Shown: piece after piece, positions 5,245-62,974 of the stretch | Layout: every line of letters starts with the position of its first letter | Position numbering within the stretch: position 1 is the first letter of the stretch | Origin: a virus | Virus record (IMG/VR): IMGVR_UViG_3300017989_000118 | Coordinates: 1-62,974 of that record | Strand: one strand, 5' to 3' | DNA length: 62,974 bases | The notes under the pieces: model-generated | Databases searched by the model: none | The model's input: only the letters and a program-made list of their open reading frames with translations | Told to the model about the DNA's origin: nothing | Program-made: the position numbers and the translations under genes

Positions 5245-5262
5245 GCCCGGCAAGGAGGGAAA

Positions 5263-7187: not shown

Positions 7188-7966
7188 GGGGCAAGGCATA
7201 CATACTCTTCATCACGCACAACAGGCTCGGCTTCAGCAGGATAACACTGCCGCACCTGCTGGAATCCGGCGGATACCACAACTACACCGTGTCGGTGGTG
7301 GACAATGCTTCCACGGACGGAACACGCGAGTGGCTGGCGGGCCTGACCCACCCGAGGTTGAGGGGGATAACCTTCAACGACGAGAACCTACCGCTGCGGG
7401 AGGTCACGAACAGGTTCTGGTCCGAGAGCGCGGACGCCGAGTTCCTGGGGAAGGTCGACAACGACACCATCATTCCGGTGGGTTTCATCGGACAAGCCGT
7501 CAAGGCGATACTGAATCCGATCAAGATGGGCGCCGTGGGGGCCATGCACTTCGAGCCGACCGACGCGATGTCTGTCCGGACGAGCGCCTTCGCGCAGAAT
7601 CTGCGGCGGCTGCCGAACGGCGCGAGAATCCTGCTGCAAAGGCACTTGGGCGGCTGCTGCTACCTGATCCGATCGTCGGTGGTGTCGCGGCACGGCTATA
7701 TGCAGGACGCGGGCTACATGAAGGGCGGCTGGACGGAGTACCAGTGGAAACTGTCTCACAACGGCTACCCGGCGGCCTACCTGTACCCGTTCATGTTCGC
7801 CAAGCACCTCGATGATCCCGGATTCCGCATAACTGCGGCGCAGCTTGGAGAGAAGATAGCGCCAGAGGATCCGGAGGATGTTTTCCGGGCGAAGGAGAGG
7901 AAAAGCGTGGCAGACCTGCTCTCGGACGCATCCGTGAGCGGGCTACTCCCGAGGTTCAGGGGCTGA
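7184..7966 (+). CDS. Glycosyltransferase family 2, short
   Basis: A 260-residue protein. The start is set at GTG 7184 because it overlaps the previous stop (GTGA) and has AGAGG upstream; the frame is open further upstream, but that is a shadow of the preceding gene. It carries AYILFITHNRLG, VSVVDNASTDGTR and a GKVDNDT metal-binding motif (DxD type) near residue 92. The length suits a minimal GT-A domain. The stop overlaps the next ATG as TGATG. A paralogue of its neighbours, but clearly diverged; donor and acceptor sugars are unknown. Confidence 0.88.
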   Translation: MRGKAYILFITHNRLGFSRITLPHLLESGGYHNYTVSVVDNASTDGTREWLAGLTHPRLRGITFNDENLPLREVTNRFWSESADAEFLGKVDNDTIIPVGFIGQAVKAILNPIKMGAVGAMHFEPTDAMSVRTSAFAQNLRRLPNGARILLQRHLGGCCYLIRSSVVSRHGYMQDAGYMKGGWTEYQWKLSHNGYPAAYLYPFMFAKHLDDPGFRITAAQLGEKIAPEDPEDVFRAKERKSVADLLSDASVSGLLPRFRG

Positions 7967-9240: not shown

Positions 9241-11471
9241 TCATACCAGCGTCGGGCAACGCCGATTACACCGCCTTGGCGGTGGAGTCGGTGAGGCGCA
9301 ACACCAGCGGCGCGATGGTGGTGATTGTTGAGACGGATTCGAGCGTCGTCTGGGAGGAAGCGGAGGACTTAGCCGTACTCCGGCTGGGCGCGTTCGAGTC
9401 GTTCAGCGACAGCGTGAACAGGGGCATCGAGTTCGGCCTGGCGAAGCTGGACTTCGAGTACATCGTGCTCCTGAACAACGACACGGTGCCGGCGAAGGGG
9501 TGGCTCCCGCCGCTCCAGCAGGCCCTAGACGACGGCTTCTGCGTGGCGGGTCCGGTCACCAACTCCTGCGGGCACGGCGAGCAGGTGGTGCATCCGGCGT
9601 TCTCCTGCACGGAACCCAGCGAGGTCAACCATGAGGCGATGGACAGGTTTGCCGACTCCCTAGAGCCGTCCAGGTCACCCGTCTTCGCCGTCGTCGGCAT
9701 GTGCATGGCCTTCAGGTCCGACCTGCTGGGGTCCATAGGCATGCTTGACAGGAGGTTCCGCGTAGGGAACTTCGAGGACAACGACTGGTGCCTTCGCGCG
9801 TCCGAGGCCGTCGACAAGGGGTGCTGCGTCTGCCGGGACTCGTTCGTCTGGCATTTTGGGTCGGCGACGTTCCGCGAGTCGGGGTCGTTCGCAGACGCCA
9901 TGGAGTCCAACAGGGTCCGTTTCGAGAGGAAGTGGCTGGGCAGGGCCGACATCCCCAAGAGGCACAACAACTCGATCTACCGTACGCCACGGGTGCCCAT
10001 CTCGCTGTCGCCGATGCCGGGCGACCCCGACGCGACATCCGCAATCGAGCGAGTGGCGTCGGAGATGCGGGCGCGCGGGCTGACAGTGGGCGATGGGCCT
10101 GACATACCGATAGACACCCGAGCCGTGCCCGAGGGGGGTTCGGACCGATTTTACGAGTTCTGCGATTCGGTCGAATGGGCCGCCGTGGAGGCCGCCCTTG
10201 AGGAGTCGGTGTCCGGCAGGCCGGATATATCGGTATGCATGATCGTGAAGGACGAGGAGACGGTGCTCGACAGGTGCCTCAAGTCCGTCGCCCCGCTAGC
10301 CAAACAACTGGTGGTGGTGGACACAGGTTCGACGGACGCCACGGTAGCCATAGCCAAGCGCAACGGCGCGGAGGTGTACCATTACGCTGCGGACGGACCC
10401 TTCAACTTCTCCGCTGCAAGGAACCTTTCCCTGTCCAAAGCCAGATGCGGTTGGGTGCTCGTTGTCGATGCGGACGAGTGCCTCCTGCCGGCGGATGTGT
10501 CCGCCATCAAATCGACAGTCGTGTCCGGCAGGGAAGCGGCATACATGATCTCGACTCGCCTGTACCAGGATAACCCCAAAATCGAGGGCATCGTGCCGAA
10601 CGACGGGATGCACCCCGACACGACGGACTATTGCGGTTATGTGCTCAGCACCAAGGTGAGGCTGTGGCCGCGGGAGTCCGGGCTGGAGTTCCGTAACGAG
10701 GTGCATGAGACCGTGGAGCAGTCAGCCGTCGAAGCAGGACTCGACTTCGGGCAATGCGAGGCGATCGTGCATCATTTCGGCGGCAGGAGCCTTTCGGAGA
10801 AGGACGGCCTGTATGCCGAGCTCGGATACGAGAAGGCCCGAAACGATCCCTGCTATAGGACATACAGAGAGCTTGGGCTGCAACTCTACAGGATGGGCAA
10901 GTTCGACGAGGCGGTCGCCGCGATGCGCAAGGCGATCGAGTTCCAGCCCGGAGACGTGGAGTGCACGGTGCTGCTGGCCGCCAGCCTTTCGGCCAGCGGT
11001 GACGAGGGGGCGGCGAAGCAGGCCGAGGAGGCATACCTGTCGGCGCTGAAGTCCGACAGGGACAGCGAGTTGGCCAACAGGTACTACGCCACATTCCTCA
11101 ACCAGCAGGGCAGGTACAAGGAGGCGCATTGGCACTACAGAAAGGTCTCCGACCGCGCGAGGCAGGCGGGCGACGTCAAGACGCTCTGCGATTTCGCGTA
11201 TGTGTGCCAGAATCTAGGCCAGCCGGACGAAGCCATCGAGCTGCTAGAAGCCGCTTCGCGGGTGAACCGACAGTACGTGTGGTCCACAGGTATGCTTGAG
11301 TGTGCGTACCACATGTCCGGCGTGATGGCGGGCAGATCCGGAGACATGCCCAAGGCATCCTCGCGGTTCAGGAAGGCCCTAGAGATCAACCCCGATTTCG
11401 CCGAGGCCAGACACAACCTTGAGATCGCGGAGCGGTGGGCCGCCGCAGACCGCCCCGGCCCCGCTTTGTAA
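9219..11471 (+). CDS. Double glycosyltransferase family 2 with TPR tail
   Basis: A 750-residue protein with two GT-A domains. The first (1-240) has LIVIPASGNADY, LLNNDT and FRVGNFEDNDWCLRA. The second begins near residue 336 with ISVCMIVKDEE, then VVVDTGSTDAT and VLVVDADECLL near 417, the SPBc2-prophage/TPR type of GT2. From about residue 546 there are TPR-like helical hairpins (LGLQLYRMGKFDEAVAAMRKAIE, AEARHNLEIAE), which normally bind protein partners and could choose the acceptor. It closes the four-gene GT block, which overlaps end to end and so is surely one transcript. Confidence 0.9.
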   Translation: MRRDTLIVIPASGNADYTALAVESVRRNTSGAMVVIVETDSSVVWEEAEDLAVLRLGAFESFSDSVNRGIEFGLAKLDFEYIVLLNNDTVPAKGWLPPLQQALDDGFCVAGPVTNSCGHGEQVVHPAFSCTEPSEVNHEAMDRFADSLEPSRSPVFAVVGMCMAFRSDLLGSIGMLDRRFRVGNFEDNDWCLRASEAVDKGCCVCRDSFVWHFGSATFRESGSFADAMESNRVRFERKWLGRADIPKRHNNSIYRTPRVPISLSPMPGDPDATSAIERVASEMRARGLTVGDGPDIPIDTRAVPEGGSDRFYEFCDSVEWAAVEAALEESVSGRPDISVCMIVKDEETVLDRCLKSVAPLAKQLVVVDTGSTDATVAIAKRNGAEVYHYAADGPFNFSAARNLSLSKARCGWVLVVDADECLLPADVSAIKSTVVSGREAAYMISTRLYQDNPKIEGIVPNDGMHPDTTDYCGYVLSTKVRLWPRESGLEFRNEVHETVEQSAVEAGLDFGQCEAIVHHFGGRSLSEKDGLYAELGYEKARNDPCYRTYRELGLQLYRMGKFDEAVAAMRKAIEFQPGDVECTVLLAASLSASGDEGAAKQAEEAYLSALKSDRDSELANRYYATFLNQQGRYKEAHWHYRKVSDRARQAGDVKTLCDFAYVCQNLGQPDEAIELLEAASRVNRQYVWSTGMLECAYHMSGVMAGRSGDMPKASSRFRKALEINPDFAEARHNLEIAERWAAADRPGPAL

Positions 11472-15200: not shown

Positions 15201-18200
15201 ATGGCTGGACCTTTTCAGAGCTATGCACCCCCGGGGGTATACACGAGGACGTTGCTCGACCCCGCCGTGGTTGCGCTAATCGGGAACCTTCGTATTCCTG
15301 CCGTGATCGGGACCGGGGAGGAGAGGCTGCGTGTCGATGACTGGCAACTGGTCAGAGGCTCCAGCAACCTCGTGGACCTGCGCGCGTTGAACGAGGACGT
15401 CAGCAGCCAGCTTGACGGTACGAACAACAGGTTCGTCACCAAGCACAGGCCGATTGTGACCGGCCAGAACGCCGGCGAGACGACGACCAACGTCAACGAT
15501 GTCGAGGTGTTCGTCAACGGCAAGAAGACCCCCGTGCTTCAGGTTCGGGGCGAGTCCGGCCTCGTCATCATGCAGAGCATCCCGTTCGAGGACGACATCG
15601 TCACAATCAACTACTACTACATCCTGAAGGACGCAAGGGAAGAGGGCGAGGATGTGAGCGACCAGTTCTCCCGCAACACGGGCGGAACCGGAATCTCGTA
15701 TCTCGGCTCCCCGATTCCGGGTGCCTCCGAGCCGACCCCCGACGCCCACACGCACACGGTCATTCTGGATGTCTCCGGGAACGGCACCACGTCGGTCGGT
15801 CCCGACGGTCACTGGCACGAGGTCGTCAACAACGCTGTCGGGCTTCCGATTGACCCCGAGACCGAGCTTCCGATCCAGGAGCACCACATCCACGACATCG
15901 TCAGCAGGTCGTTCGCCAACAACAGGACGCTTTACACCGCCCACGCCCCGATTGTGGACGGCAGTAACGGCGGCCGCACGACCACGAATCCGGTCGATGT
16001 CCAGGTGTTCGTGAACGGCGACGCAGTCAGGGTGGTGGATGTCGATGGCGCCGAGGGCGCCGTCACGCTGCGGGACGCGCCGTCGGCCACCGACACGGTC
16101 ACGGTCAACTACTACCACAACACGTTCGCCAACACCTGCGACGACCTGCCGTTCCCCGACCCCAACGAGGTCATCCGGTGCGGCATCGCGCCGGGCAGGC
16201 TCGACTACGAGGAGGGCGTGGACTTCACCATCGTCGGGAACCAGATTTGCTGGGGCAACGCCGCGACAATCCGCTCCGGGCTCCACACGCCGGGGTTCGA
16301 GTTCTTCGACGACACCCAAATCCAGACGACCCTCGTGGACGAGAGGATTTGGCGGGAGGATGTCAGCGCCCAGATCAAGCCGGGCAACAACATCTTCACG
16401 GCGAAGTACACCCCCATCGTGAACGGCGACGGCCGCGGCACCATCACGGAGGACCCGCAGAAGGTCATTGTGACGGTCAACGGCGTCGCGGTCCCGGCGG
16501 TCCGCATCGACGGCCGCGAGGGCAAGATTTACCTCAACATCGTGCCGGTGCCGGGCGACGAGGTCCTCGTCACATACTGGCGGAACACGATTGCGGATGA
16601 CGTCTACGAGCTCGAGGTCACGCAGGCGGGCGGAGCCGGCAGCGGCAAGTACACCGTCACCAGCATGGACCTGGGTTCGGTCGGAAGGTGCGATGTCGTG
16701 CCCGCGAGCTTCTCCGGGTTCGATGTTCCGCTGTTCCTCGCCGCGGGCGGCGAGGTCTTCTTCCGCACGGGTCCGATCGCGGGCAAGGGCTTCGCGGTGG
16801 ACGAGTATGTCCGCATCACGTTCACATACGGCGAGAAGTTCGTAGTCGAGTCCTTCGAGGACGAGTTCCTGACGATTCCGAAGACCGGCGGCAGCGGCAC
16901 CGGGCTGACGAACACAGGGCGGACGAACTCGACGTACATCGACTCCGTCACGGGTCTCCAGTTCACGATCAACACCATCGGCGACCCGGTCGTCCCGGCC
17001 ACCGGCGGCATCAAGCCCGGCGCGTCCTTCGTCATGCGGTGCGTGGCCCAGGGCGAGTTCACGGCCGGCACGCGGTTCAACAGGCAGATTCCTGGAATCG
17101 TGTTCACGGTGTCGAACACGGAGGACATCAACGAGAGGATCGGCAGTTCGCCCGGCGACAAGGCCACCATCTCGACATTCAAGAGGGAGGGCAACGAGCC
17201 CGCCGTCAGCGACTTCTACTACATCTCGTACTGGTACGACAAGCAGGACTACTCCTGCAAGCTGTTCACCCAGTTCAACGACGTGGTGGCCGAATACGGC
17301 GAGCTGAAGCCGAAGAACCACCTGACCACGGCGGCGTTCCTGATGTTCCTGAACGGGGCGGTGGCTCTGCTCATGTGCCAGGTCAAACGGCAGCCCGGGC
17401 TGGGGATTGCGGCGTCGTCCTCGTTCCTTGAGGCGTTCGAGGAACTGAAGAAGCCGCAGGAGTTCGGCATCAAGCCGGCGGTGATCACGCCGCTGACCAC
17501 CGACGACACGGTGCTCAACGCCCTGATGCTGCACAACGACATCATGTCGTCCATGCGGTTCCGCAGCGAGCGGATGACCATCTTCGGCGTCCCGGTCGGC
17601 ACCGAGCCGAACGAGGCGGCCGAGAAGGCGCTCTCATACAAGAACGAGCGCATGACCATGGTCTACCCGGACGGCGCGGTCATCGGACTCCTCGACGAGG
17701 AGGGGACCGAGATTGAGCATGTCGTCGGCGGCGAGTACCTTGCCGCGGCGCTTGTCGGGCTGAACGTGTCCCCGGCGTACGACGTGGCCACGCCCATGAC
17801 CAGGAAGACGCTCGCCGGATTCAAGCGGCTCTTCCGCAAGATGGACGAGACCACGATGGACATCGTGGCCAACTCGGGCGTGACCATCATCGAGGACACC
17901 AACCCGGTCCTGCGGGTGCGCCATTGCCTGACGACGAACATGACCAGCGCGTTGACGCGGGAACTCTCGATCCTCACGATCAGGGACTACGTGCAGCAGG
18001 CGATGAGGTTCGCCCTGGAGCAGTACATCGGGCAGAAGTACCTCGCCAAGCTGAACAACGACATCGCCATCACGGCGAACTCGGTCATGCAGCAGTTGAT
18101 CCAGAGGGAGATCATCGTCGCGGCGACGGACGCCAGTGTGCAGACGGACGCGGCTGACCCGACGATGGCGTTGGTGGAGATTTCGTACTCTCCCGTCTTC

Positions 18201-18251
18201 CCGCTGAACTACATCCAGGTCACGTTCAAGCTGCGAGGCAGGCTGTCGTAG
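15201..18251 (+). CDS. Tail sheath protein, expanded
   Basis: A 1016-residue protein, much longer than ordinary sheaths (about 400-700). The C-terminal third is sheath-like: ITPLTTDDTVLNALMLHNDI, GGEYLAAALVGLNVSPAYD, MTRKTLAGFKRLF, then RVRHCLTTNMTSALTRELSI and an end with YSPVFPLNYIQVTFKL. The N-terminus (YAPPGVYTRTL) is also typical. Inserted are three copies of a beta module (residues 77-141, 243-308 and 398-462) and a His-rich loop (181-222) with HTHT, GHWHEV and EHHIHD. The sheath contracts around the tube to drive the spike through the target envelope; the inserts should face outward. Codon choice looks more uniform (few ATA codons) than in flanking genes, which suits high expression. 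A terminator follows. Confidence 0.93.
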   Translation: MAGPFQSYAPPGVYTRTLLDPAVVALIGNLRIPAVIGTGEERLRVDDWQLVRGSSNLVDLRALNEDVSSQLDGTNNRFVTKHRPIVTGQNAGETTTNVNDVEVFVNGKKTPVLQVRGESGLVIMQSIPFEDDIVTINYYYILKDAREEGEDVSDQFSRNTGGTGISYLGSPIPGASEPTPDAHTHTVILDVSGNGTTSVGPDGHWHEVVNNAVGLPIDPETELPIQEHHIHDIVSRSFANNRTLYTAHAPIVDGSNGGRTTTNPVDVQVFVNGDAVRVVDVDGAEGAVTLRDAPSATDTVTVNYYHNTFANTCDDLPFPDPNEVIRCGIAPGRLDYEEGVDFTIVGNQICWGNAATIRSGLHTPGFEFFDDTQIQTTLVDERIWREDVSAQIKPGNNIFTAKYTPIVNGDGRGTITEDPQKVIVTVNGVAVPAVRIDGREGKIYLNIVPVPGDEVLVTYWRNTIADDVYELEVTQAGGAGSGKYTVTSMDLGSVGRCDVVPASFSGFDVPLFLAAGGEVFFRTGPIAGKGFAVDEYVRITFTYGEKFVVESFEDEFLTIPKTGGSGTGLTNTGRTNSTYIDSVTGLQFTINTIGDPVVPATGGIKPGASFVMRCVAQGEFTAGTRFNRQIPGIVFTVSNTEDINERIGSSPGDKATISTFKREGNEPAVSDFYYISYWYDKQDYSCKLFTQFNDVVAEYGELKPKNHLTTAAFLMFLNGAVALLMCQVKRQPGLGIAASSSFLEAFEELKKPQEFGIKPAVITPLTTDDTVLNALMLHNDIMSSMRFRSERMTIFGVPVGTEPNEAAEKALSYKNERMTMVYPDGAVIGLLDEEGTEIEHVVGGEYLAAALVGLNVSPAYDVATPMTRKTLAGFKRLFRKMDETTMDIVANSGVTIIEDTNPVLRVRHCLTTNMTSALTRELSILTIRDYVQQAMRFALEQYIGQKYLAKLNNDIAITANSVMQQLIQREIIVAATDASVQTDAADPTMALVEISYSPVFPLNYIQVTFKLRGRLS
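15429..16586 (+). repeat. Three copies of a beta module within the sheath
   Basis: The copies lie at 15429-15623, 15927-16124 and 16392-16586. Each reads, in order: an aromatic plus a (K/H)(H/Y).PIV start, a Gly/Thr-rich turn (GETTTN, GRTTTN, GTITED), a V.V.VNG core, a (V/R)(R/D)G.(S/E)G.V/I centre, and a final D.V.(I/V)(N/T)Y(Y/W) strand. Similar cores occur in the structural proteins at 3271, 13507, 41461 and 43750. The repeat is clear at protein level and diverged at DNA level, so the duplication is old. Confidence 0.8.
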
Positions 18252-20812: not shown

Positions 20813-20845
20813 GGCGGGCCGCCCCTCCGGGGCGGCCCGCCGCTT
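20813..20845 (+). terminator. Strong intrinsic terminator after the tube gene
   Basis: GGCGGGCCGCCCC (20813-20825) pairs perfectly with GGGGCGGCCCGCC (20829-20841) around a 3-base loop, followed by GCTTTG. The inner 23 bases of this hairpin are identical to the hairpin at 62321-62345. It would lower transcription from the abundant tube gene into the chaperone genes. Confidence 0.85.
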
Positions 20846-20864
20846 TGCGCTAGAATGGGTCCGG

Positions 20865-34960: not shown

Positions 34961-37900
34961 ATGCCGAGACTCAACTACTATGGCGGTCCGATCAAGAGCG
35001 GCTTTGGCGTCCGCCCGGTGCAGTACGGGGCGCAGTGGAAGTTCGGCGAGGGCATGGGCCGGGATTACTTCGCCAGGCTCGGCAAGGTCTCCCGCGTGGA
35101 CGAGGAGAACGGCGTCGTAGATCTCAAGTGGCTGGACTACGGCGGATACGCGCAGGAGGTGCCGCTGGCGCTGCCGTACGCCACCCGACGGGGGGCCGGA
35201 CACGGCATGCCGTCCAGGGGCGCGATCGCAATCTGTGTCTTCATCAAGTACAGCCAGCGGATCGGGAAACCGGTGATAGTCGGGTGGCTGAAGTCGCCGT
35301 GGGCCGGAAGCAAAGCCAACGAGCTGGATTTGGGCTTCGGCACGCTCAGCACCCTGTCGCAGGACTTCATCGTCGATCAGGAGGATATCCGGCTCGCGCC
35401 CCGCATAGGCGCCGCGTCGGAGAGGCGGCGACTCCGGAAGACGCATCCCGGGGACGTGCATTGGATAAGCGACCACGGCGGCGAGCTGTACCTCGACGAG
35501 AATGTGCAGCTATCCTCCGGAGCGCTGGACGAGTTCCTTCTCCGCTCCGATGATCAGACGGCGAGTCTGGTCACCGGCACCAGCCGCGTCGCCACGGAGG
35601 CCGGCCGCCGCAGGTTCGGCATCGCGTTCCGGAACGAGGTCGTATCGTGGCAGGATCATGAGTTCGACGAGGAGAGTCTGGAGGAGGAGAAGGACGACGT
35701 CGACGAGGGCATATCCAGCGCTATGCGCAAGCTCACGTACGAGTCCCGTATACTGCCTGTGGTCACGAGATCCGGGAAGTTCCTCTACATCCCGACACCG
35801 CTTCTGAGCAAAGGCACCGTCGACGCCGGCGGAACGCCATGGGTGGAGGATATCCTTGAGCTTCGGGAGGTCGGGGACTGCGTCAAGGATGTCTGCGAGG
35901 AGGTGCATGATCACGATCTGGATTCGCTGTACCCTCCCGCAGCGGTCGGCGACAACCACACGGACATATTCATCAGGAGGGTGCTCGGCACATACCTCGG
36001 CAACGACCCGACGGACAAGAAGTCGTACGGCGTGCCGATGTACCGCCGCATTTTCGAGGGGTACGGCAGTTGGCGGCCGGATGCCCCCGGCAAGGAGTAC
36101 TACGATCCGGACAGCGGGGAGAAGAAGGAGACATCCGCCGGCCCGAAATGGGTTCCGATAAACCGCACGTATTTCGAGAACGAAGCGTTCGAGAGCGCGG
36201 AGTCCGTCGAGAAGTCGGGTCTGGGCGGCGACGAGGGGCGACTGAGGACGCGAGAGAACCAGGAGGCGAGCCTCCTGCACACGGAGTTCGCGCACACCGG
36301 GCAATTCGGCAGCAACGCGGACTCGGACACCGTCCGCAACACGGCCTTCGACATCTCGAAGGAGGGCGTCCTCCAGTTCATCGTGAGCGCGTCGAGCGAC
36401 GAGCATGCCATAGTGTCCACCGAGGGCTCCGAGGAGAGCGAGGAGGAGGGCGGCTGGAAGTCGTCCGGCCGCAGCGTCGAGGGGCATTTCGAGGGCTCTG
36501 TCAAGCTGTCCCACGCGGCGAACACGAACGAGGAGGAGAGTTTCCGGCAAACAGCGCTGGGCAAGTTCGTCACCCTATGGGGGGCCAGCGAGCACCACTT
36601 CGCAGAGGACTGGAAGGACAAGTCCAGATCCGATACGCTCGCCACCGCCTTCATCATGGACGGGTTCCCCGGCCAGGATGGCGGCGGCCCGGGCGTGCAG
36701 GTGCTGGAGCTGAAGGGCGAGGGCGCGACGGACAGGTACGACTGGCCCGTGGTGCCCGCCGGCCTGAAGGTCGCCAACCGGCGGCGAAGCGAGCGACGCA
36801 GCACATGGGGCGGCCTCGATTGGTATTTGGGCAGGACTGTAGATAACCGCACGTCGTGGAACTTGGCCACCGCCGGGCAGGTCAAGCAATGGATTGGTGC
36901 GACCCCGGCGCCGTCCACGGTGAACGAGGAGGAGGCCGAGGCCACCAATGTCGCCGGGCGCGTGAACTGCTCCATCGTAAGGCACACTGTCGGTTCGGTG
37001 GAGGAGCACATCGGCAGGAACGAGAATGAGGAGTCCTGGAACACGGTGTTCGACGGGCAGGTCAAGCACCGGATAGGCTACACGGAGAGTCCGGACAACA
37101 ACACGGGCGAGGACCTCGACGTGCTTGGGCCTAACGGACCCGGCCGCGTCAGAAACTCGGTCAACCGCCAGGTGCTCGGCTCGGTGGAGGAGCATGTCGG
37201 GGTCAACGAGAAGCAGGAGACATACAACGCCGTCTTCGACGGGCAGATCAAGCACAGGATAGGGTACACGGAGGTCCCGCCGGAGGAGCGGCTCAACACC
37301 GGACAATGCCCCAAGGAGGGCGGCTCCGAGGGCGAGATGGAACCTTGCATGCTGGTGGTTGGGCCAAACGGCCCGGGACGCGTCAAGAACTCTATAAACA
37401 GAGAAATACGCGGCTCGGTGGAGGAGCATGTTGGGGTCAACGAGCAGGAGGAGTCGCACAACGCGGTCCTGGACGGCCAGTTGAAGATGCGGATCGGCAC
37501 GACCACGACGCCCCCGGCCAACCGCCGGAACACGTCCGACGGACTCGATGTCTCCGGGCCGTTCGGCGCGGGCGACAAGGGCAACTCGGTGAACCTGCAA
37601 CTCCTGGGCAGTTTTGAGGCGAACGTCGGCAAGAACCAGACGCTGGGCGACTCGGTCTACATCAACACGCTCGGCGGGTGGGACATCAACATCCTCGGGC
37701 CTGACATGTCGAACTGTGCCATCAAGCTGCTGGCGAAGGGGAATGTAGATGCGTCCGTGCAGGGGGATTGGGCGGACAGCATCTCGGGGAAGCAGGCCCG
37801 CACCATCGGCGGTGACTACATGAGGACGGCCGCCAGACACGTCCTGGTGGGGGATGTGCTAATCCAAGGCAACCTGAGCGTCGAGGGGGACGTGCATGTC

Positions 37901-37963
37901 ACGGGCGACCTCCATGCCGACGGGGAGATAACCGACTCCAACGGCGAGGTGCACAGCCACTAG
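34961..37963 (+). CDS. Baseplate central spike (gp5/VgrG-like) with HxH tip
   Basis: A 1000-residue protein; AGGATAGGG precedes the ATG. Residues 1-130 form an OB-fold-like region (YFARLGKVSRVDEENGVVDL, AICVFIKYSQRIGKPVIVGW), as in gp5 and VgrG. No lysozyme domain is seen. Residues 660-900 hold four repeats that suit a triple-stranded beta-helix. The end is a regular needle (GDVLIQGNLSVEGDVHVTGD) finishing NGEVHSH. The HSH fits the HxH iron-binding motif at the tip of P2 gpV-type spikes (family knowledge). Three chains should form a membrane-piercing needle under the hub. Confidence 0.88.
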   Translation: MPRLNYYGGPIKSGFGVRPVQYGAQWKFGEGMGRDYFARLGKVSRVDEENGVVDLKWLDYGGYAQEVPLALPYATRRGAGHGMPSRGAIAICVFIKYSQRIGKPVIVGWLKSPWAGSKANELDLGFGTLSTLSQDFIVDQEDIRLAPRIGAASERRRLRKTHPGDVHWISDHGGELYLDENVQLSSGALDEFLLRSDDQTASLVTGTSRVATEAGRRRFGIAFRNEVVSWQDHEFDEESLEEEKDDVDEGISSAMRKLTYESRILPVVTRSGKFLYIPTPLLSKGTVDAGGTPWVEDILELREVGDCVKDVCEEVHDHDLDSLYPPAAVGDNHTDIFIRRVLGTYLGNDPTDKKSYGVPMYRRIFEGYGSWRPDAPGKEYYDPDSGEKKETSAGPKWVPINRTYFENEAFESAESVEKSGLGGDEGRLRTRENQEASLLHTEFAHTGQFGSNADSDTVRNTAFDISKEGVLQFIVSASSDEHAIVSTEGSEESEEEGGWKSSGRSVEGHFEGSVKLSHAANTNEEESFRQTALGKFVTLWGASEHHFAEDWKDKSRSDTLATAFIMDGFPGQDGGGPGVQVLELKGEGATDRYDWPVVPAGLKVANRRRSERRSTWGGLDWYLGRTVDNRTSWNLATAGQVKQWIGATPAPSTVNEEEAEATNVAGRVNCSIVRHTVGSVEEHIGRNENEESWNTVFDGQVKHRIGYTESPDNNTGEDLDVLGPNGPGRVRNSVNRQVLGSVEEHVGVNEKQETYNAVFDGQIKHRIGYTEVPPEERLNTGQCPKEGGSEGEMEPCMLVVGPNGPGRVKNSINREIRGSVEEHVGVNEQEESHNAVLDGQLKMRIGTTTTPPANRRNTSDGLDVSGPFGAGDKGNSVNLQLLGSFEANVGKNQTLGDSVYINTLGGWDINILGPDMSNCAIKLLAKGNVDASVQGDWADSISGKQARTIGGDYMRTAARHVLVGDVLIQGNLSVEGDVHVTGDLHADGEITDSNGEVHSH
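36952..37700 (+). repeat. Four degenerate repeats in the spike shaft
   Basis: The units begin near 36952, 37138, 37372 and 37567. Each has G(R/D)V/K.(C/N)S(I/V).R., then GS(V/F)E(E/A)(H/N)(V/I)G.NE..E(S/T), then a DGQ(V/I/L)K.RIGYT-like end. The second and third are the closest. Spacing varies because loops differ in length; the third loop is longest and adds two Cys. The pattern suits turns of a trimeric beta-helix. Confidence 0.8.
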
Positions 37964-54282: not shown

Positions 54283-57200
54283 GTGACAGCCAAAAACTTC
54301 GGAACAGGGGTCTCAAGGTCAGTCGATCCGGCTGACCGATCTTGGCTGCATGTCGTGCTCAACCAAGGTCGTCCGGCCTTGGAGTACGAGATCAACCTGA
54401 TTCAGGACATCGGGTTCGCTCGGATAGCCGAGGGGCACAAGGCGGTTCTCCCGTCGGGTTTCCTGTCGTTGCCGAGTATAGCCTTCGCGAATGAGGCGAA
54501 CACCTTCTACCTGCCCGCCGCCAAGGCGGAAACCGTTTCGTACGCCGTGGAGGACCTCGCCGCCGGCTCGTCCATCTCCAACCGCGTGGTCCGCGTTTTC
54601 GAGGAGCGAGCGAGGGTGGTAGCCGTCCGAGTGGTCAACCAGTCGGTCGCGGCAGCCGGCATCGATGACGGAAACACCTGCGAGGTGACCTTGTCTACGG
54701 CGGAAGGCACCATAGCGACCGAGACATTCGACTCCACGACGGCATTTCCCGCCGCCAACACGCAGCACGATTTAGGCTCGGTGGGCAACGCGCATGTGCG
54801 CCCCGGCTCAGCGGCGCTCCTGTCCGTCGCCAACGGCCCGACGGCCAACCCTGGTCCGTTCCTGATCGAGGTTGATTACGTCGCCGATGAGCCGATGATG
54901 GCCAATGTGGCGGGGTGGAACGTGCCTGTTCGCGGGACACAGGCGGAGGATTTCCAAGGAGGCACGCTCAACAACCTCGGAAACAAGATTTCGCTTTCCG
55001 CCGCCCCCTCCACGGGCTCCAGGACCGATCTCGTATATCTGGAGGTTTGGCTGGCCCTGGTGACCGGAAACTCCGACAGCCCGCCCATCAAGCCGCCGAG
55101 CGTCAGCAGGCTGGACACGGCCGGCCGAGTGTTCCAGAAGAGCCAAGTGTGGCCATTCGGGAACATCCTGTACGGCGGAACGACGCTTGACGACGATATC
55201 GTCGATCCCGATGTGAGCCTCGAAACAACCAAGCGGGTTCAATTGCAGTACGCAATCCGGACCTTCGAGGGCGTTGACCTGGACACTTACCCCCGCGGGC
55301 TTGGCGACCCCAACATAGCAGGGATTGGACCCCAAGAGATGGTGACCGTCGTGTACGGCACACCGTTCCGGAACGCTGGAGAAGAATCCGGCGACCACGG
55401 ACTCTGGATATCGGAAACCCCAGACTTGACGGTGGACGGTAAGGTGTACGCGATCCCCATCTGCGCCATCCACAGGCGCAATTCCGGGGGATTCCGCGCC
55501 AATGATGATCCGAGTCCGAACCCGAACGGCAGCTCTCCGTCCGACAGCGAGGATTTGGGGCTGCGACCAGACGGTTTCGCATCGGACCGCATCGTGCCAT
55601 CCGACATCATCGACCTAAGGCACAAATCCGTCCTGTCGCCGGCCACCGCCTCCTCCGCAATCGTCAGATCGCAGCGGGACGCATTCGCGGGGACCCTCCA
55701 CACTTCGTTCGGCAGCGCCGGCGTGTCGCCGGACGTGTCCGGTTCGACAGTCTCCACCCAGAAGGAGATTGTGTCCAGCGCGAGCCTGAACCCGGCCGTG
55801 AGCGAGCACATCGGCTCCTGCGACGGGCTGCGGAGGGTATTCTCCGCCGCCCCAACGGCAGAGAAGAACATCTTCATGGCCATCAGCCAGAACCTGGATG
55901 TGCCGCCGGACCCGGAGTTCGGTTTCGGACTGCCGTCCTGGCTGCAACAGCAACCCGATCCCGCGAACACGATAGAACTCACGCTCCCGGCCGAGTCGAG
56001 CGCCAAGTTCAGCGCCCGTCCGCCAAGAGGCATACTCAGCGAGACCCAAGAGGAAATCGTGTTCAATGCCGTCACGCTTGGCCCGAACGGCAAGTCGATG
56101 AAGCTTGAGTTCGGAGTCGGATCATACAGGACGGACGGCAACCTCAACGGGCGACATTATCCCCAGGATGTGTGGCTGTACTTTGACATCGAGGTCCCGG
56201 CCACTATCGGCATAAGGTCGGAGCCGCTGGAGATGCAGAGTCCCCACGCGACGGCAATCGCGACCAACAAACTGAACCCCGGCACCACCCAGCGGGTCGC
56301 GGCCACGTCACGGGAGAGCTCCGCCAACGGCAGCAAGATGAACAACACGCACTACGGCACCCTCTACGCCGCCACGCTCGATTTTCGCATGGTCGAGACG
56401 ACCCGGCGACTCGCCGCCCCGCTTCGGGACGCGACCGAGGACGGCTTCTTCTCGGGCATGTTCGACTTGGATTCGTACATCGGCGACGCAGATCCGAAGC
56501 CAGTGCCAGATGAGCGACTCACGGTCGATTTCCTGAAGAAGCGGTTGGACGGCGTGATCGATCTCGACGACGACCTGCTCAACATCGATGCGGGCTGGGT
56601 GTCCGGTCGCCGCGCCATGTTCGTCCGTCCCCTGAACGCGACCACGAAGTCCGGGGGCACGGGCAAGGACATCGAGTTCGCCATGAGTTCGCACGCATTC
56701 TATGTCCTGCGCGACGCGTCTTTGCCCGCATCGGTCCCGTTGTTCACTCTGCTTTCGCCGCTTCCGATTGTGCATCTGCGCGGCGCGTATATCCGGGAGC
56801 CGGGGACGACTACCCCGCTGCAACTGGACGCCGCCGATTACACGGAAGGGGTATCCGGCGAGGTCTGCGGGCGACTGATTCCTGATCCGGACGACCCCGG
56901 CGCGACGGATGAGTTCATCATTCCGGCCGGCATCGTCGAGCGCCCCGGCACGAGCACATACCGCCTCACCGACAGCAGCGACCCATTGCAGGGCACGGTG
57001 CCGCTGGCCACGAATGTGATGCAGGTGCTCGGGATAGACAAATGGGACGCCAACGGTTCGCAGTGGGTGCCCAAATACAAGGCGGGCCTCCTGAAGAAGG
57101 CGTTCGTGAACAACGACGCCACGGTGAGCCTGAACATGATTGTGCCCGTCTACATCCGTGAGGGAGGGATCACGAACCAGATCGCACTCCTGAAGCGGAC

Positions 57201-58167
57201 GGAAAGGTCCGGCGCCTCGCCACTGTACGAGATTTTCGAGTTCAGCATCGATCCGTCGGCGGAGGGCTATGTGGGTGCGGGCACGCCCGCCGATCCTTGG
57301 AGGTATCGGATAAGGTACCGCGCGGTCCCCAACACGGGTTCGCCATGGGGTCCGCTGGACACCGATTTCGACATCGAGTACAGCAAGTACATATCCGCGA
57401 TGAGGCAGCAGGACTCGGACCCGGTGTCGCCGGGACGGAATGCCTTTGTGGCCGCCGGCCTTCGCAACGGGCACGAGGTCTTCTTCGACGCCGATATCAG
57501 GGTGTCCCTGCCGATAGACGCGGAGGTTGCCACCCCGATAATCAGCGTGCCGCCCAGTAGCGGCGGGCGGCCTGCGCAGACAGCGGCGTTCGATCCGGGT
57601 GCGAGGACATTCAAGGTATCCTCGGTGTCCGCCGAGATGGTCGTGACATCGGCCTCCCCGGCAAGGCTGGGCGACGCCGTGCTTCCCGATTCCGCCGCAA
57701 ACGCCACGGACAATGTGTTCGTGCAGCCGGCGCAGGGCGGCACGGACTTCCAGTCTGAGGCCCTTGGGGACTCCGGATCAGCCGTGCTGAGGCTGCCAGT
57801 ACTCGGTTCCGCCGGCCGCGACGCCGTGGAGACGCTCAGCGGCATCGAGGTGCGGCTCAGCGGGTCGAACGGGGTGTTCAATGCCGTTCTGGACACATCC
57901 GGCGCCCCCATAAGGGTGGCGGCTTCCGCAGGTCCGCTGACGGCGCAGGGCGATCTGGCGGCGTACCTCCCGGTCACGGCTGTGGCGGACACGGGCGAGG
58001 TGGTCCTGCTGATGCTGTCCCAGCGGAACTCGGCTGACCCGGGTAGCGGTATGTTTGACGGCACCCCCTCAGTGGACACCGGGGCCGAGGGGTTCGCCGC
58101 GACGGTTTACAGGCCCTGGGGGAGGCCGCTGGTGAAGGGTCGTGGGATCGACGCGCACTCCGCCTAG
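54283..58167 (+). CDS. Large tail fibre/adhesin protein 1
   Basis: A 1294-residue protein from GTG 54283; GGGAGGG precedes it. The N-terminus DRSWLHVVLNQGRPALEYEI, NLIQDIGFARIAEG matches the start of the next gene (VIFQRDRPVLDFELN..QDI) and the DUF4815-type opening of phage tail proteins. Many beta-rich blocks follow with Ser/Thr/Gly-rich linkers; no enzyme motif is seen. Near residue 880 VSGEVCGRLIPDPDDPGATD hints at a calcium-like Asp loop. Likely a trimeric or extended fibre whose N-terminus docks at the baseplate. The preceding 64-bp gap has an AT-rich CTTGTATTCTTTAAC that may be promoter. Confidence 0.75.
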   Translation: MTAKNFGTGVSRSVDPADRSWLHVVLNQGRPALEYEINLIQDIGFARIAEGHKAVLPSGFLSLPSIAFANEANTFYLPAAKAETVSYAVEDLAAGSSISNRVVRVFEERARVVAVRVVNQSVAAAGIDDGNTCEVTLSTAEGTIATETFDSTTAFPAANTQHDLGSVGNAHVRPGSAALLSVANGPTANPGPFLIEVDYVADEPMMANVAGWNVPVRGTQAEDFQGGTLNNLGNKISLSAAPSTGSRTDLVYLEVWLALVTGNSDSPPIKPPSVSRLDTAGRVFQKSQVWPFGNILYGGTTLDDDIVDPDVSLETTKRVQLQYAIRTFEGVDLDTYPRGLGDPNIAGIGPQEMVTVVYGTPFRNAGEESGDHGLWISETPDLTVDGKVYAIPICAIHRRNSGGFRANDDPSPNPNGSSPSDSEDLGLRPDGFASDRIVPSDIIDLRHKSVLSPATASSAIVRSQRDAFAGTLHTSFGSAGVSPDVSGSTVSTQKEIVSSASLNPAVSEHIGSCDGLRRVFSAAPTAEKNIFMAISQNLDVPPDPEFGFGLPSWLQQQPDPANTIELTLPAESSAKFSARPPRGILSETQEEIVFNAVTLGPNGKSMKLEFGVGSYRTDGNLNGRHYPQDVWLYFDIEVPATIGIRSEPLEMQSPHATAIATNKLNPGTTQRVAATSRESSANGSKMNNTHYGTLYAATLDFRMVETTRRLAAPLRDATEDGFFSGMFDLDSYIGDADPKPVPDERLTVDFLKKRLDGVIDLDDDLLNIDAGWVSGRRAMFVRPLNATTKSGGTGKDIEFAMSSHAFYVLRDASLPASVPLFTLLSPLPIVHLRGAYIREPGTTTPLQLDAADYTEGVSGEVCGRLIPDPDDPGATDEFIIPAGIVERPGTSTYRLTDSSDPLQGTVPLATNVMQVLGIDKWDANGSQWVPKYKAGLLKKAFVNNDATVSLNMIVPVYIREGGITNQIALLKRTERSGASPLYEIFEFSIDPSAEGYVGAGTPADPWRYRIRYRAVPNTGSPWGPLDTDFDIEYSKYISAMRQQDSDPVSPGRNAFVAAGLRNGHEVFFDADIRVSLPIDAEVATPIISVPPSSGGRPAQTAAFDPGARTFKVSSVSAEMVVTSASPARLGDAVLPDSAANATDNVFVQPAQGGTDFQSEALGDSGSAVLRLPVLGSAGRDAVETLSGIEVRLSGSNGVFNAVLDTSGAPIRVAASAGPLTAQGDLAAYLPVTAVADTGEVVLLMLSQRNSADPGSGMFDGTPSVDTGAEGFAATVYRPWGRPLVKGRGIDAHSA

Positions 58168-58226: not shown

Positions 58227-61200
58227 ATGGCAGACATCAGCAAAAACTCGTTTGACCCCGCTAAGGACTACCGGAAAGTCATTTTCCAGCGCGACCGCCC
58301 GGTCCTCGACTTCGAGCTGAACGAGGGACAGGACATACAGCGCTACCAGCGTGATTGGCTTATTCGGCACTCCAGCGGGGACTTCTATCTGGGGGACGGG
58401 TTCCTAGTCCACCAGGTCGATGACCCGGAGCTCCAGGGGAACCGCGTCGTGGTCCGGCACGGCAGCGTCGTGCACATGGGCAAGCGAATCCTCCTGGAGG
58501 AGGATTTCACGATCGGCGAGGACGATTCGCCGCTGACGACCCCGAGCGAGGACCGCGAGGACATCGTCTACATCAAGTACTTCGCCGAGGAGATCACCTC
58601 GGAGGACGACCCGGACATCATCGACCCCGAGTTCGGCCAGGAAGCCGCGATCAGGGAGAAGATCAGGGTCGTCATCAAGGTCGAGGAGGGCGGCCAGATA
58701 CCGTGCCCGGCCCCCGGCGAGACGGTATTCGAGATAGCCAGACTGCACCGCCGGGCGGGCGTGACGGCCGTGACGTCCGACCAGATCGAGGACACCCGCG
58801 CGCAGGCATTGCACAACTTCGTCGTCCAGGGCCTGCATGTCGGCGAGAGCACTGAGGCGGGAGGGGCCTTCAGGTTCGTCATCGCGAACGGCAGGGCGAG
58901 GGTCGCCGACGAGGATGTGACCTTCGACTTCAGCGACGCCGACACGTCGGCCTTCGAGGTGTCCCCCAACACGACCACCGAGGTCTTCATCAGCCGCGAC
59001 GGCCAGATTGTCATGGAGGAGGTCGGCACCAACGAGTGCTGCACCACCGACATACACCTGCCGCTGGCCTGCATCGTGTCCAGCGACGTGGGCATCGAGA
59101 CGATCACCGACAAGAGGTTCTTCCTGTCGTCGTTCCTGATGTGGATATACCTCAAGCTCCTGGAGCTTGAGGACGACCTGATCGCGTTGCGGGAGGATCC
59201 GCCGGTCCAGGAGTGGGAGCAGGAGAACTCCAAGCGCAACTACCCGTTCGCGCAGGACGCCTCGCTCTACAACGGCGTGCTACAGCTCCCGACGGACTTC
59301 CTGATCGACATCGACCTGGCGAACACCCAGTGCAACGCCCGGTACTACATCTCCCGCGTCATCAACACGCCGAACCTACAGTGCGTCGAGGTCAGCCAGC
59401 GGAACGGGTCCAGGAACCCCGTGGCCCGCTTGTGCAACACGAACACCGTCTGGACGGCGCTCGAGTGGGAGATGCCGCCCAGGTACTTCCACTCGGCGGT
59501 GAACATCGCCGGGAAGGCGTACATCTTCGGCGGGCAGGACAACCTCGACCAGATCGTCGGCGGCGAGACCATCATCGAGTTCGACCTCGACGGCGCCGAG
59601 GGCGTGTGGACCAGGTCCACCCGCGGCGACACGTCCTCCGGCTCGGAGGAGTGGCCGACCGGCAGGTTCGACCATGCGGCGATCGCGATGTCCGACAACA
59701 GGATGCTGGTCTACGGCGGGCGGGCGAACGCCGACGACGCCGCGCCGCTGCCGCTGCCGGACATGTGGATCTACACGCCGGACTTCGAGGACCCCGACGA
59801 GGGCTACTGGAAGAGGCTCCCGCAGCTCGCGGCGACCATAGGCGGGTCCACCGTGGACCTGAAGGGCCGCTACGGGCACCGGATGGTCTCCCGGCAGGTC
59901 ACGCTGCCCACGGGCACATACGAGGAAATCTACATCTACGGCGGCTACGTGCTGTTCGAGAGCGGATCGACCATCAGCTACGAGCCGACCGACGACTTCA
60001 TCAGGGTCACCCTCGACATCACCCCGGTGAACGACGGCGGGACCGTGAGGCCGAGGGATGAGGTCGTCAGCGTGGAGCTGCTCGACGCGTCGGCCGCAGG
60101 CCGCCGGGCGTGGCACGGGCTGACGCTGACGGGCAGCCGCGTCTACGCCATGGGCGGCGAGAACGCCCTGGCCCAGACGTTGAACGACCTGTGGGAGTTC
60201 AACCCGGCGAACATGCAGTGGACGAGGCTGGAGCCGTCCGACGCCCTCCTGCCGCCCGTGAGGCTGGGGCACCAGATGTTCCAGACGACGGGGGCCGTCT
60301 ACGTGTGGGGTGGGTGGAACTCGTTCGGCTCGCTGTCCGACACCTGGAGGTTCGATCTCGACACCAGGAGGTGGGAGCAGAGGACGTCCTCGCCGCTGCG
60401 GCTACAGTACGCCGCCGCGGTGATGAGGGACGATTCCCGCCTGATTGTGTTCGCGGGCCAGTCCGGCCGCACCGAGAGCAGGCAGATATTCCTCTATGTC
60501 GTGGACGAGATTCCGGACTCGGACTTCATCACCCTGAACGACTCGTGCATCTGCGGCTCGGCGATCCTCGACATGACCAAGGTGCCGGAGGGCACGGACG
60601 AGGACTTCACCTTCCAGCAGGCGGCGCTGCTGCCGACGGTGGCCCACCCGAGGCTGCCGGAGGACTGCTTCCCGTGCGACGTCAGCCAGGAGGGCCAGGA
60701 GCTCTGCTGCGAGGACGGCAGGGTCTTCGCCATGGTCCGGGGGAGCTCGTCGCTCCACGGCCCGCTGGAGATTCCGCTCGAGAACCCGAACTGCCAGGTG
60801 CTGTGCGCCCTGGTGGCCCACGCGAACGGCAACGCCGACTGCGTCGGCTTCCCGTGCACCGGGTACGACTACGACTACCAGCCGCCCGGCGAGTACGAGT
60901 ACGAGTACCCCGGCCCCGGCCCGATATGCGGGTGCGTCTTCGTCCGCGTCGGCCGGAAGGACTGCGGCAAGTTCTATGTCGAGTACGACGTGTCCTACAA
61001 CGTCCCGCAGCCGATCGGCGAGGAGGCCGAGGTCCTGCTGGAGCTGAACTGGATGGTGACGGGTCAGCCGTGCGAGGTGCCCGTCGAGCAGCTCGCCCCG
61101 CGGGCGCTCATCGACATCAAGTCGGCCAGGGAGTTCACCTTCTGCGGCGACGGCGTGGACGACAGCGGCAGGCCGGTCCGGTACGTCTGGGAGATATACA

Positions 61201-61376
61201 ACGACGCCACGGGCGTCCTGCTCGACCGCTTCGAGCCCGCCGAGGACCAGCCGGAGGACTACTACCGCGTGCTGTCGTACAAGTTCGCCTTCGCGGGCAC
61301 CTTCCGGGTCAGGCTCATCGTGCAGTTCCGGGACGACGACATCGCCATCCGGGACACCATCGTGGACGTGGAGTAA
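58227..61376 (+). CDS. Tail fibre with DUF4815-like start and kelch propeller
   Basis: A 1049-residue protein; AGCAGGG lies before the ATG. Residues 1-310 are DUF4815-like (DYRKVIFQRDRPVLDFELN, DFYLGDGFLVHQ). From about 415 to 760 (59475-60510) six kelch-type blades follow, each with R..H/Y(S/A/R/G).. then an aromatic-GG motif: YFHSAVNIAGKAYIFGGQ, FDHAAIAMSDNRMLVYGG, YGHRMVS..IYIYGGY, AWHGLTLTGSRVYAMGGE, LGHQMFQTTGAVYVWGGW, LQYAAAVMRDDSRLIVFAG. Cys-rich and YEYEYPGPG segments follow, then a final PKD-like domain (RYVWEIYNDATG). A beta-propeller is well suited to bind sugar or protein receptors. Codon use is uniform and GC-high, as in the sheath, suggesting strong expression. Confidence 0.88.
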   Translation: MADISKNSFDPAKDYRKVIFQRDRPVLDFELNEGQDIQRYQRDWLIRHSSGDFYLGDGFLVHQVDDPELQGNRVVVRHGSVVHMGKRILLEEDFTIGEDDSPLTTPSEDREDIVYIKYFAEEITSEDDPDIIDPEFGQEAAIREKIRVVIKVEEGGQIPCPAPGETVFEIARLHRRAGVTAVTSDQIEDTRAQALHNFVVQGLHVGESTEAGGAFRFVIANGRARVADEDVTFDFSDADTSAFEVSPNTTTEVFISRDGQIVMEEVGTNECCTTDIHLPLACIVSSDVGIETITDKRFFLSSFLMWIYLKLLELEDDLIALREDPPVQEWEQENSKRNYPFAQDASLYNGVLQLPTDFLIDIDLANTQCNARYYISRVINTPNLQCVEVSQRNGSRNPVARLCNTNTVWTALEWEMPPRYFHSAVNIAGKAYIFGGQDNLDQIVGGETIIEFDLDGAEGVWTRSTRGDTSSGSEEWPTGRFDHAAIAMSDNRMLVYGGRANADDAAPLPLPDMWIYTPDFEDPDEGYWKRLPQLAATIGGSTVDLKGRYGHRMVSRQVTLPTGTYEEIYIYGGYVLFESGSTISYEPTDDFIRVTLDITPVNDGGTVRPRDEVVSVELLDASAAGRRAWHGLTLTGSRVYAMGGENALAQTLNDLWEFNPANMQWTRLEPSDALLPPVRLGHQMFQTTGAVYVWGGWNSFGSLSDTWRFDLDTRRWEQRTSSPLRLQYAAAVMRDDSRLIVFAGQSGRTESRQIFLYVVDEIPDSDFITLNDSCICGSAILDMTKVPEGTDEDFTFQQAALLPTVAHPRLPEDCFPCDVSQEGQELCCEDGRVFAMVRGSSSLHGPLEIPLENPNCQVLCALVAHANGNADCVGFPCTGYDYDYQPPGEYEYEYPGPGPICGCVFVRVGRKDCGKFYVEYDVSYNVPQPIGEEAEVLLELNWMVTGQPCEVPVEQLAPRALIDIKSAREFTFCGDGVDDSGRPVRYVWEIYNDATGVLLDRFEPAEDQPEDYYRVLSYKFAFAGTFRVRLIVQFRDDDIAIRDTIVDVE

Positions 61377-61385
61377 GGGGGAGAG

Positions 61386-61631
61386 ATGGGTAGCACAAGG
61401 AAAATCGCCGAGAGGCTCGCCGGGGTGACCGGGGGGCCGGGCGGGGAGGACTACTTCACCCCCGAGCAGCGGCGGAGGGTGGACGAGGAGGTCGTGAGGA
61501 TCAGGGACATGGTGGCCGCGGAGATAAACCGCGTCGCCCCGGAGGTCAGGGCCATGGACCCCGACGGGCTGGCGTACGTCGCCCAGGGAATCCTTGAGGA
61601 GCTCATCGACGAGCTCCAGCGGAGGGTGTGA
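61386..61631 (+). CDS. Small helical protein
   Basis: An 81-residue protein; AAGGGGGAGAG precedes the ATG. Two or three helices (RRRVDEEVVRIRDMVAAEI, GLAYVAQGILEELIDELQRR) with a Gly-rich turn. No family is recognised. Its end carries the SD (GGAGG) of the ferritin-like gene and overlaps its alternative GTG start, so the two are coupled and may be partners. Confidence 0.7.
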   Translation: MGSTRKIAERLAGVTGGPGGEDYFTPEQRRRVDEEVVRIRDMVAAEINRVAPEVRAMDPDGLAYVAQGILEELIDELQRRV

Positions 61632-61633
61632 CC

Positions 61634-62251
61634 ATGCCGGGGTTCGGCGACGCGTTCTCGGGCCTTTCGCTCGACCGGAAGATGACGGCCGACGAGCTCG
61701 TGCGGGCTGTGCGGTTCGCGGTGGCCGCCGAGTACGAGGCGGTCCAGCAGTACACGCAGATAGCCGAGGCGTCCGACAATCCGCTAGTCACCAAGGTCAT
61801 GCTGGAGGTTGCGGACGAGGAGCGGGTCCACGCGGGCGAGTTCCTGCGGCTCCTGAGGGAGATCGCTCCGGAGGAGGCCGGCCTCTACGAGGAGGGCGGC
61901 TCCGAGGTCGAGGACGCCGCGGGAGGCGAGGCCAAGGCGAAGCCGCGCGGCGCGTCCGCGTGGCCGCAGGTGGGCGCGAAGGTCACGCCCAGGGAGCGGA
62001 CGGAGGCGTATTACTCCGGGTACGCCGGCGCCCCCGAGTGCTTCCTGGAGCCGGGGGAGGTGGCCATCGTGGTCTCGGTGGACAACCCGCCGGTCACGGG
62101 ACGCCGCGCCAACTTCCTCACCGCCGCGTTCGAGCGCGGGGGCAGGAGATGGACGGTGGCATTGCGGCGGGGGGAGTACGATGTGGTCAAGGACGCTGGC
62201 GAGCGGGCCGCGAGGCGGATAGCAAGGAGGCTCGTCGTTAAGCAAGCATAG
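61634..62251 (+). CDS. Encapsulin-cargo-type ferritin-like protein with extra C-terminal domain
   Basis: A 205-residue protein; GGAGG lies eight bases before ATG 61634. Residues 1-97 match the encapsulated ferritin-like family: MPGFGDAFSGLSLDRKMT, AAEYEAVQQYTQIAEASDN, EVADEERVHAGEFLRLL. E33, Y40, E63 and H66 align with the iron-site residues known in EncFtn (E32, Y39, E62, H65). Such proteins form ring-like decamers that oxidise iron, usually inside encapsulin shells. Normal family length is near 100 residues; here a charged linker leads to a second domain (108-205) with ECFLEPGEVAIVVSVDNPP and WTVALRRGEYDVVKDAG, unrecognised. No encapsulin gene or clear targeting peptide is in the window. 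Confidence 0.85.
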   Translation: MPGFGDAFSGLSLDRKMTADELVRAVRFAVAAEYEAVQQYTQIAEASDNPLVTKVMLEVADEERVHAGEFLRLLREIAPEEAGLYEEGGSEVEDAAGGEAKAKPRGASAWPQVGAKVTPRERTEAYYSGYAGAPECFLEPGEVAIVVSVDNPPVTGRRANFLTAAFERGGRRWTVALRRGEYDVVKDAGERAARRIARRLVVKQA

Positions 62252-62657
62252 GGTGCGACCCCCGGGCAGTCCGGGCAGTAGTGTCTACCAGGGCGCCGCA
62301 GGACGGCGCCCCGCGGAAAAGGGGCCGCCCCTCCGGGGCGGCCCCTCGTTTTTGTAAGGCCTTTGCCCCGGCGAGGGTTCGGGAGGTGCGACATGGGGAA
62401 CGCGAGGCGGTTGGCCCGGCGGCTGCTGGCCGAGAGCGAGGGCGCGAGGCGCGAGAGAGAGATCCACGAGCTGGAGCAGCAGTGGGGGAGGCCGCCTGCG
62501 GCCCGCCCGCGAACGGGCCCCGCTCCCGAATCTGCATCTCGGCGAGGTCCGGCCCGAGGATGCCGCATATCCCGACGATGTCCCGCCCCTCCAAGCCCCT
62601 CGTCCGCCGCCTCTCCCACGCCCTCATCTGCCTGTGCGTCGGCTCCCCGCGCCCCAT
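62238..62657 (-). CDS. Possible minus-strand gene
   Basis: Reading leftward from ATG 62657, which has GGGAGGG seven bases before it, the first 50 residues look coding: HRQMRAWERRRTRGLEGRDI, VGICGILGPDLAEMQIRERG. The rest (Ala/Pro/Arg-rich) runs through the opposite gene start and the terminator and is unlikely to be real. The two genes may therefore converge near 62490, with a lost stop codon or a sequencing frameshift. Not recognised. Confidence 0.35.
   Translation of the reverse strand: MGRGEPTHRQMRAWERRRTRGLEGRDIVGICGILGPDLAEMQIRERGPFAGGPQAASPTAAPARGSLSRASRPRSRPAAAGPTASRSPCRTSRTLAGAKALQKRGAAPEGRPLFRGAPSCGALVDTTARTARGSHPMLA
62291..62311 (+). repeat. GC hairpin preceding the terminator
   Basis: GGGCGCCG (62291-62298) and CGGCGCCC (62304-62311) form a perfect stem with a CAGGA loop. 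It lies ten bases before the intrinsic terminator and probably protects the mRNA 3' end or aids termination. Confidence 0.6.
62321..62353 (+). terminator. Strong intrinsic terminator closing the late operon
   Basis: GGGGCCGCCCC (62321-62331) pairs with GGGGCGGCCCC (62335-62345), followed by TCGTTTTT. This has the best T-run in the window. Its inner 23 bases are identical to the terminator after the tube gene. Confidence 0.92.
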
Positions 62658-62862: not shown

Positions 62863-62974
62863 GGGCGGTGCGCGCCGAGCTTCCGCTCGGCGAGCGCGCG
62901 TACCGCTGCCCGGAGTGCGGCCTTGGGCTGGATCGGGACCTGAACGCGGCGAGGAACCTGCTGGGTCTTTTGGA
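62850..62974 (+). pseudogene. tnpB: TnpB zinc ribbon and RuvC-III end (right half)
   Basis: In the frame with codons from 62850 the translation reads SACGAVRAELPLGERAYRCP, then ECGLGLDRDLNAARNLLGLL. This is the TnpB zinc ribbon (CG...YRCPECG) followed by the RuvC-III motif DRDLNAA with its catalytic Asp. The first Cys of the ribbon is absent (Pro at that place) and nothing upstream in any frame looks like TnpB, so the N-terminal 300 or so residues are missing. Joined to base 1, the frame continues as ESEPKRSW.... An inactive remnant, or a gene cut by assembly. Confidence 0.75.

Follow-up and report, generated by a model that had tools for sequence, protein, structure and literature searches.

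A late-operon gene of a contractile-tailed phage predicts an EncFtn-family ferroxidase fused to a novel C-terminal domain

The window, that is, the whole stretch of DNA analysed, was a 62,974-base IMG/VR fragment that, apart from the gene described here, was a contractile-tail gene cluster encoding a sheath (nt 15201–18248; phrog_2839, E=2.7e-30), a tape measure protein (at nt 23354) and a baseplate J protein (at nt 43750). Glycosyltransferase genes (phrog_841, phrog_3692 and phrog_13126) were located inside the structural cluster at nt 5904–11468, and the contig end (nt 62880–62971) carried a fragment similar to the zinc ribbon at the C terminus of TnpB-type transposon proteins (YRCPECGLGLDRDLNAARNLLGLL). 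The tail module was collinear with that of the 485-kb uncultured phage LR745208.1 and partly with that of Tunturiibacter phage Tunturi_5.

Toward the right end, four genes on the plus strand formed a tightly packed late operon closed by a strong terminator. The first (nt 54283–58167) encoded a large fibre-type protein with a homologue in LR745208.1 (41% identity over residues 205–406), and the second (nt 58227–61376) a tail-fibre protein with, according to Pfam, a DUF4815-like N terminus followed by kelch repeats, which as an IMG/VR query gave no match. The third was an ORF of 81 aa (nt 61386–61631), starting 10 nt past the stop of the kelch gene and ending 2 nt before the next ATG; it had no family match, and a weak two-piece match in locus L044 was dismissed as chance. 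The last gene, encoding the EncFtn fusion of 205 aa, extended from the ATG at nt 61634 to a stop codon ending at nt 62251 and was preceded by a Shine-Dalgarno sequence, GGAGG (nt 61621–61625), 8 nt upstream of the start. Its GC3 was 0.91, and those of its neighbours were 0.91 and 0.95. An intrinsic terminator (nt 62320–62352, plus strand), consisting of a 12-bp GC-rich stem (nt 62320–62346) followed by a T run, CGTTTTTG, marked the operon end. Terminator-like hairpins at nt 20816–20846 and 62322–62352, 31 nt each and 41.5 kb apart, were 90% identical, which suggests that a terminator sequence was reused within the window. The order proposed by the sequence-only reading, with the EncFtn gene behind the fibre genes and last before the terminator, was thus borne out; direct adjacency to the fibre genes was not, the 81-aa ORF lying between the kelch gene and the EncFtn gene.

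Residues 1–100 of the fusion protein (nt 61634–61933) constituted an EncFtn domain. The best profile match was to NCBIfam NF058679 (EncB_fam; E=1.4e-24 over residues 1–103), with 86.3 bits versus a curated cut-off of 90, followed by TIGR04535 (E=3.6e-19) and, in Pfam, Rubrerythrin (1e-8) and EncFtn-like (7e-5; score 22.9 versus a cut-off of 27). In the PDB search, the EncFtn of Pyrococcus furiosus, 5n5e, was matched at E=6.9e-14. Judged from these searches, homology to EncFtn is clear, the similarity being far beyond chance even though the curated thresholds were narrowly missed. An AlphaFold run on a 31-row alignment predicted two long helices (residues 19–46 and 50–77; pLDDT about 85–98) and a further helix (residues 79–97), with pLDDT of 91–98 across residues 21–90. 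Among the 50 Foldseek matches listed, all were EncFtn chains (5n5e, 7s8t, 7s5c, 7s5k, 5da5, 5n5f and R. rubrum variants), except 3k6c, an EncFtn-like decamer. With these helices in the model, the two-helix ferritin half on which the sequence-only reading depended was present.

The ferroxidase centre of R. rubrum EncFtn comprises Glu32, Tyr39, Glu62 and His65 (PMC5012862). Since residues 28–76 of the query aligned to 27–75 of the chain in the PDB search, their equivalents in the window protein were E33 (nt 61730–61732), Y40 (nt 61751–61753), E63 (nt 61820–61822) and H66 (nt 61829–61831). All four, already singled out from the sequence as retained, were invariant in the 31-sequence alignment. 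Sequence, predicted fold and active-site residues therefore support assignment of the window protein as a putative ferroxidase of the EncFtn family.

The remainder of the protein, residues 108–205 (98 aa; nt 61955–62248), appeared to be a novel domain with no Pfam match and low pLDDT. Two AlphaFold runs, on the full protein and on the C-terminal half, predicted three strands followed by a helix with low confidence, and the model of the half alone was too poor for structure search. No convincing relative was found in IMG/VR, phage records, Pfam, the ORFs of the collected loci, 43 tail-tube relatives or 395 genomes of one phylum, in agreement with the earlier suggestion of a fusion to a new domain, for which a search of other viral genomes had been proposed. 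The best match among phage records, an Aeromonas tail tubular protein A (E=0.4), was unconvincing; a match in L242 and L243 (E=0.0015) was confined to a short A(D/N)FLTAAF(E/R)R stretch and judged to be chance; and weak matches to uS13 in the PDB search were set aside. In shell-associated EncFtns, the place of this domain is taken by the targeting peptide. Other MPxFG-type EncFtns from phages were joined at the same point to unrelated C-terminal sequences, as in L006 (434 aa, with DUF5661) and L010 (289 aa), and L011 was similar.

The closest cellular relatives shared up to 69% identity with the window protein over residues 1–94. Eighty cellular loci (L029–L108) were searched for encapsulin within about 4 kb; as these were the best matches only, the proportions are not a census, but 70 of the 80 had neither an encapsulin nor a targeting peptide and encoded proteins of about 100 aa, whereas the other 10 had an encapsulin and all bore a C-terminal extension, mostly with a GSL-type targeting peptide at the end. 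An encapsulin was present in 4 of 22 whole genomes searched. Hence, for the subfamily to which the window protein belongs, the statement that encapsulin genes are the normal neighbours of such proteins was not supported. This cellular subfamily of about 100 aa is widespread. Encapsulin (PF04454) was absent from the 62,974-base fragment and from 23 other viral records with EncFtn, and the window protein, unlike its encapsulin-linked homologues, had no GSL-type targeting peptide, its C terminus ending in ARRIARRLVVKQA. In a tree of 100 columns, the short length of which limits the support, the window protein fell inside a cellular group as the sister of L031, a sequence from a deltaproteobacterial MAG (SH-aLRT 89), and apart from the main branch of phage EncFtns. 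This weakly resolved tree suggests that the window EncFtn may have been acquired from a shell-less cellular lineage.

No close phage relative carried the same fusion gene. EncFtn was not found in LR745208.1 or Tunturi_5, nor was it detected in 43 further records with a tail-tube protein of the same type, some of which were short fragments; its apparent lack in these records indicates that EncFtn is dispensable in the clade. Two other members of the tail-tube clade, L010 (469 kb) and L147 (183 kb), possessed an EncFtn gene, located more than 100 kb away from the tube gene. Absence from most records of the clade, together with this distance, points to sporadic acquisition rather than to a conserved tail part.

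Several dozen viral EncFtn loci were recovered in two IMG/VR scans, and no published description of EncFtn in phages was found in the literature. Two of the proteins were fusions to portals: in L021 (nt 4519–6234) a portal (PF06381, E=7.8e-72) had a C-terminal EncFtn domain, and in L131 (nt 5498–8152) portal (PF06381, E=8.3e-77), EncFtn and topoisomerase IB followed one another in one chain. In L012, an EncFtn ORF of 79 aa lay directly downstream of a portal-topoisomerase IB gene. A group of T4-like phages had EncFtns with N termini such as MGKFKDYLTEA and MSRLSNYLTES. An N terminus resembling the T4-type capsid-targeting peptide was present in 8 of 31 phage EncFtns (L028, L118, L135, L136, L138, L139, L143 and L148), versus 0.15 expected on shuffling (0/2000); other ORFs at those loci had it too (28/550), and it occurred in none of 746 ORFs of cellular loci. 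The pattern was defined after the sequences had been seen, and the phages and loci are related, so that these counts represent a strong lead and not proof. The window protein had no such N terminus. In a descriptive survey without a control, the neighbourhood of phage EncFtns contained a mixture of genes for head proteins, ribonucleotide reductase and HNH proteins. In L017 and L018, large phages of the same type, an N-terminal tag, MDNKKVASELLKIAKxLV, was carried by many small proteins, EncFtn included. Eggerthella phage LE2-3 (MW679026.1; L002, nt 8386–11229) encoded, between its portal and capsid genes, a protein of 948 aa in which a ferritin-like stretch was weakly matched (PF02915, E=2.9e-4), slightly below the cut-off.

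The reading we favour, to which we assign a probability of roughly one half, is that the gene, expressed late in infection, encodes an open decameric ferroxidase derived from a shell-less cellular lineage, in which the C-terminal domain serves as an adaptor. The N-terminal half would fold as a two-helix EncFtn subunit and, upon binding iron, subunits would assemble into an open ring of dimers as characterised EncFtns do, with Fe(II) being oxidised to Fe(III) at di-iron sites on the dimer interfaces. Standing last in the late structural operon, the gene would be expressed during virion assembly; the most likely role would be to lower free Fe(II) late in infection and so to lessen Fenton damage to DNA and particles. 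The C-terminal domain probably anchors this ring to a partner of phage or host origin. By itself, R. rubrum EncFtn acts as a ferroxidase but is unable to mineralise iron, storage requiring the shell (PMC5012862); by analogy, the lack of an encapsulin in the fragment argues for ferroxidase action rather than an iron store. The family, predicted fold, active-site residues, operon position, absence of encapsulin from the 63-kb fragment and cellular ancestry come from the present analysis, and from them we infer the oligomer, activity, timing, anti-Fenton role and adaptor role. The C-terminal fusion could, on the other hand, block decamer formation, which would count against this reading.

The main rival, which would also be the more novel case, is that the C-terminal domain brings the protein into or onto the particle, be it the head interior, the neck or the tail, the capsid or particle then acting as the encapsulin shell and delivering a ferroxidase or bound iron upon infection. 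We regard this as possible but tentative. The T4 targeting sequence directs proteins, both internal and foreign, into the T4 head (PMC3012670), and the two portal fusions, together with the T4-type N termini of 8 of the 31 phage EncFtns, make ferritin as capsid cargo a live hypothesis; the EncFtn ORF behind the portal-topoisomerase gene and, in the window, the location of the gene in a structural operon are in line with it. However, the window protein lacks the T4-type N terminus and in the tree appears to be a separate acquisition, the EncFtn genes of L010 and L147 are remote from the tube gene, and the targeting pattern was chosen post hoc among loci many of which are related. For loading into an HK97-type capsid, as raised in the sequence-only reading, the backing provided by the portal fusions and N termini of other phages is circumstantial.

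It is unlikely that the gene is a chance cellular passenger, recently transferred or introduced by mis-assembly, that does nothing for the phage. Its closest domain relatives are indeed cellular, both by identity and in the tree, and the TnpB-like fragment lies downstream near the contig end. Against this, the gene is packed 2 nt behind the preceding ORF, has its own Shine-Dalgarno sequence, is placed before the operon terminator, and agrees in GC3 with its neighbours; the active-site residues are intact, a domain unseen in cellular homologues has been gained, and EncFtn genes are kept by many unrelated phages.

We consider it similarly improbable that the di-iron site serves other chemistry, such as scavenging of O2 or NO in an anaerobic host, or that the fold is a mere scaffold. 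Most of the nearest cellular homologues come from anaerobes, in which O2 or radical chemistry may outweigh storage; yet the residues exactly match those of a characterised ferroxidase. The sequence-only reading had offered protection from peroxide as a role; protection by peroxidase chemistry is unlikely by analogy, because no such activity was seen with R. rubrum EncFtn (PMC5012862).

Very unlikely is the supply or insertion of iron into an iron-binding tail spike: a spike-like protein of 1000 aa (nt 34961–37963) does end in EVHSH, an HxH end that presumably resembles iron-binding spike tips, but to our knowledge HxH-tipped spikes are common and acquire iron without dedicated ferritins, 43 relatives with this type of tail had no detectable EncFtn, the EncFtn product is Fe(III) with no link to the spike, and the genes of L010 and L147, members of the same tail-tube clade, are far from the tube gene, so that this earlier proposal gained no specific support.

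Encapsulins and the capsids of tailed phages have the HK97 fold in common, and encapsulins are believed to derive from phage capsids. The HK97-type capsids of tailed phages might act as encapsulin-like shells, with EncFtn as head cargo recruited by portal fusion, by T4-type peptides or, here, by the new domain at the C terminus, a ferroxidase or iron thereby being carried in the virion; we hold this general scheme to be doubtful at present. That these phages have the ferritin cargo but no shell, with the gene in a late operon in this window and fused to portals elsewhere, offers a direct means of testing whether cargo, like shells, has moved between viruses and cellular compartments, and whether virions carry or manage iron.

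The window protein shares the two-helix fold and ferroxidase residues with the EncFtn cargo proteins of the NF058679/TIGR04535 families, namely R. rubrum Rru_A0973, P. furiosus PFC_05175 and M. xanthus EncB/EncC, and is 24–37% identical to the solved members, but differs from them in having neither encapsulin nor targeting peptide, in its location in a viral late operon and in its new C-terminal domain. In the fused EncFtn-encapsulin of P. furiosus (2e0z), the EncFtn domain is likewise N-terminal in a longer polypeptide, although its partner there is an HK97-fold shell and here a 98-aa domain of unknown fold. The shell-less cellular proteins (Thermoanaerobacter, Desulfosporosinus, Syntrophobacteraceae and others) resemble it in the MPxFGxxFSGL start, in identity of up to 69% and in lacking targeting peptide and encapsulin, whereas they are encoded by single-domain chromosomal genes and the window protein, encoded in a phage, has about 100 extra residues. 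With the other phage EncFtns (L006, L010, L011, L013, L021, L131, L133 and the T4-like group) it shares the EncFtn domain, the same ferroxidase residues and a viral contig; these proteins, however, bear fused DUF5661, portal, topoisomerase IB or NUDIX domains or targeting-like N termini and mostly form a branch separate from that of the window protein.
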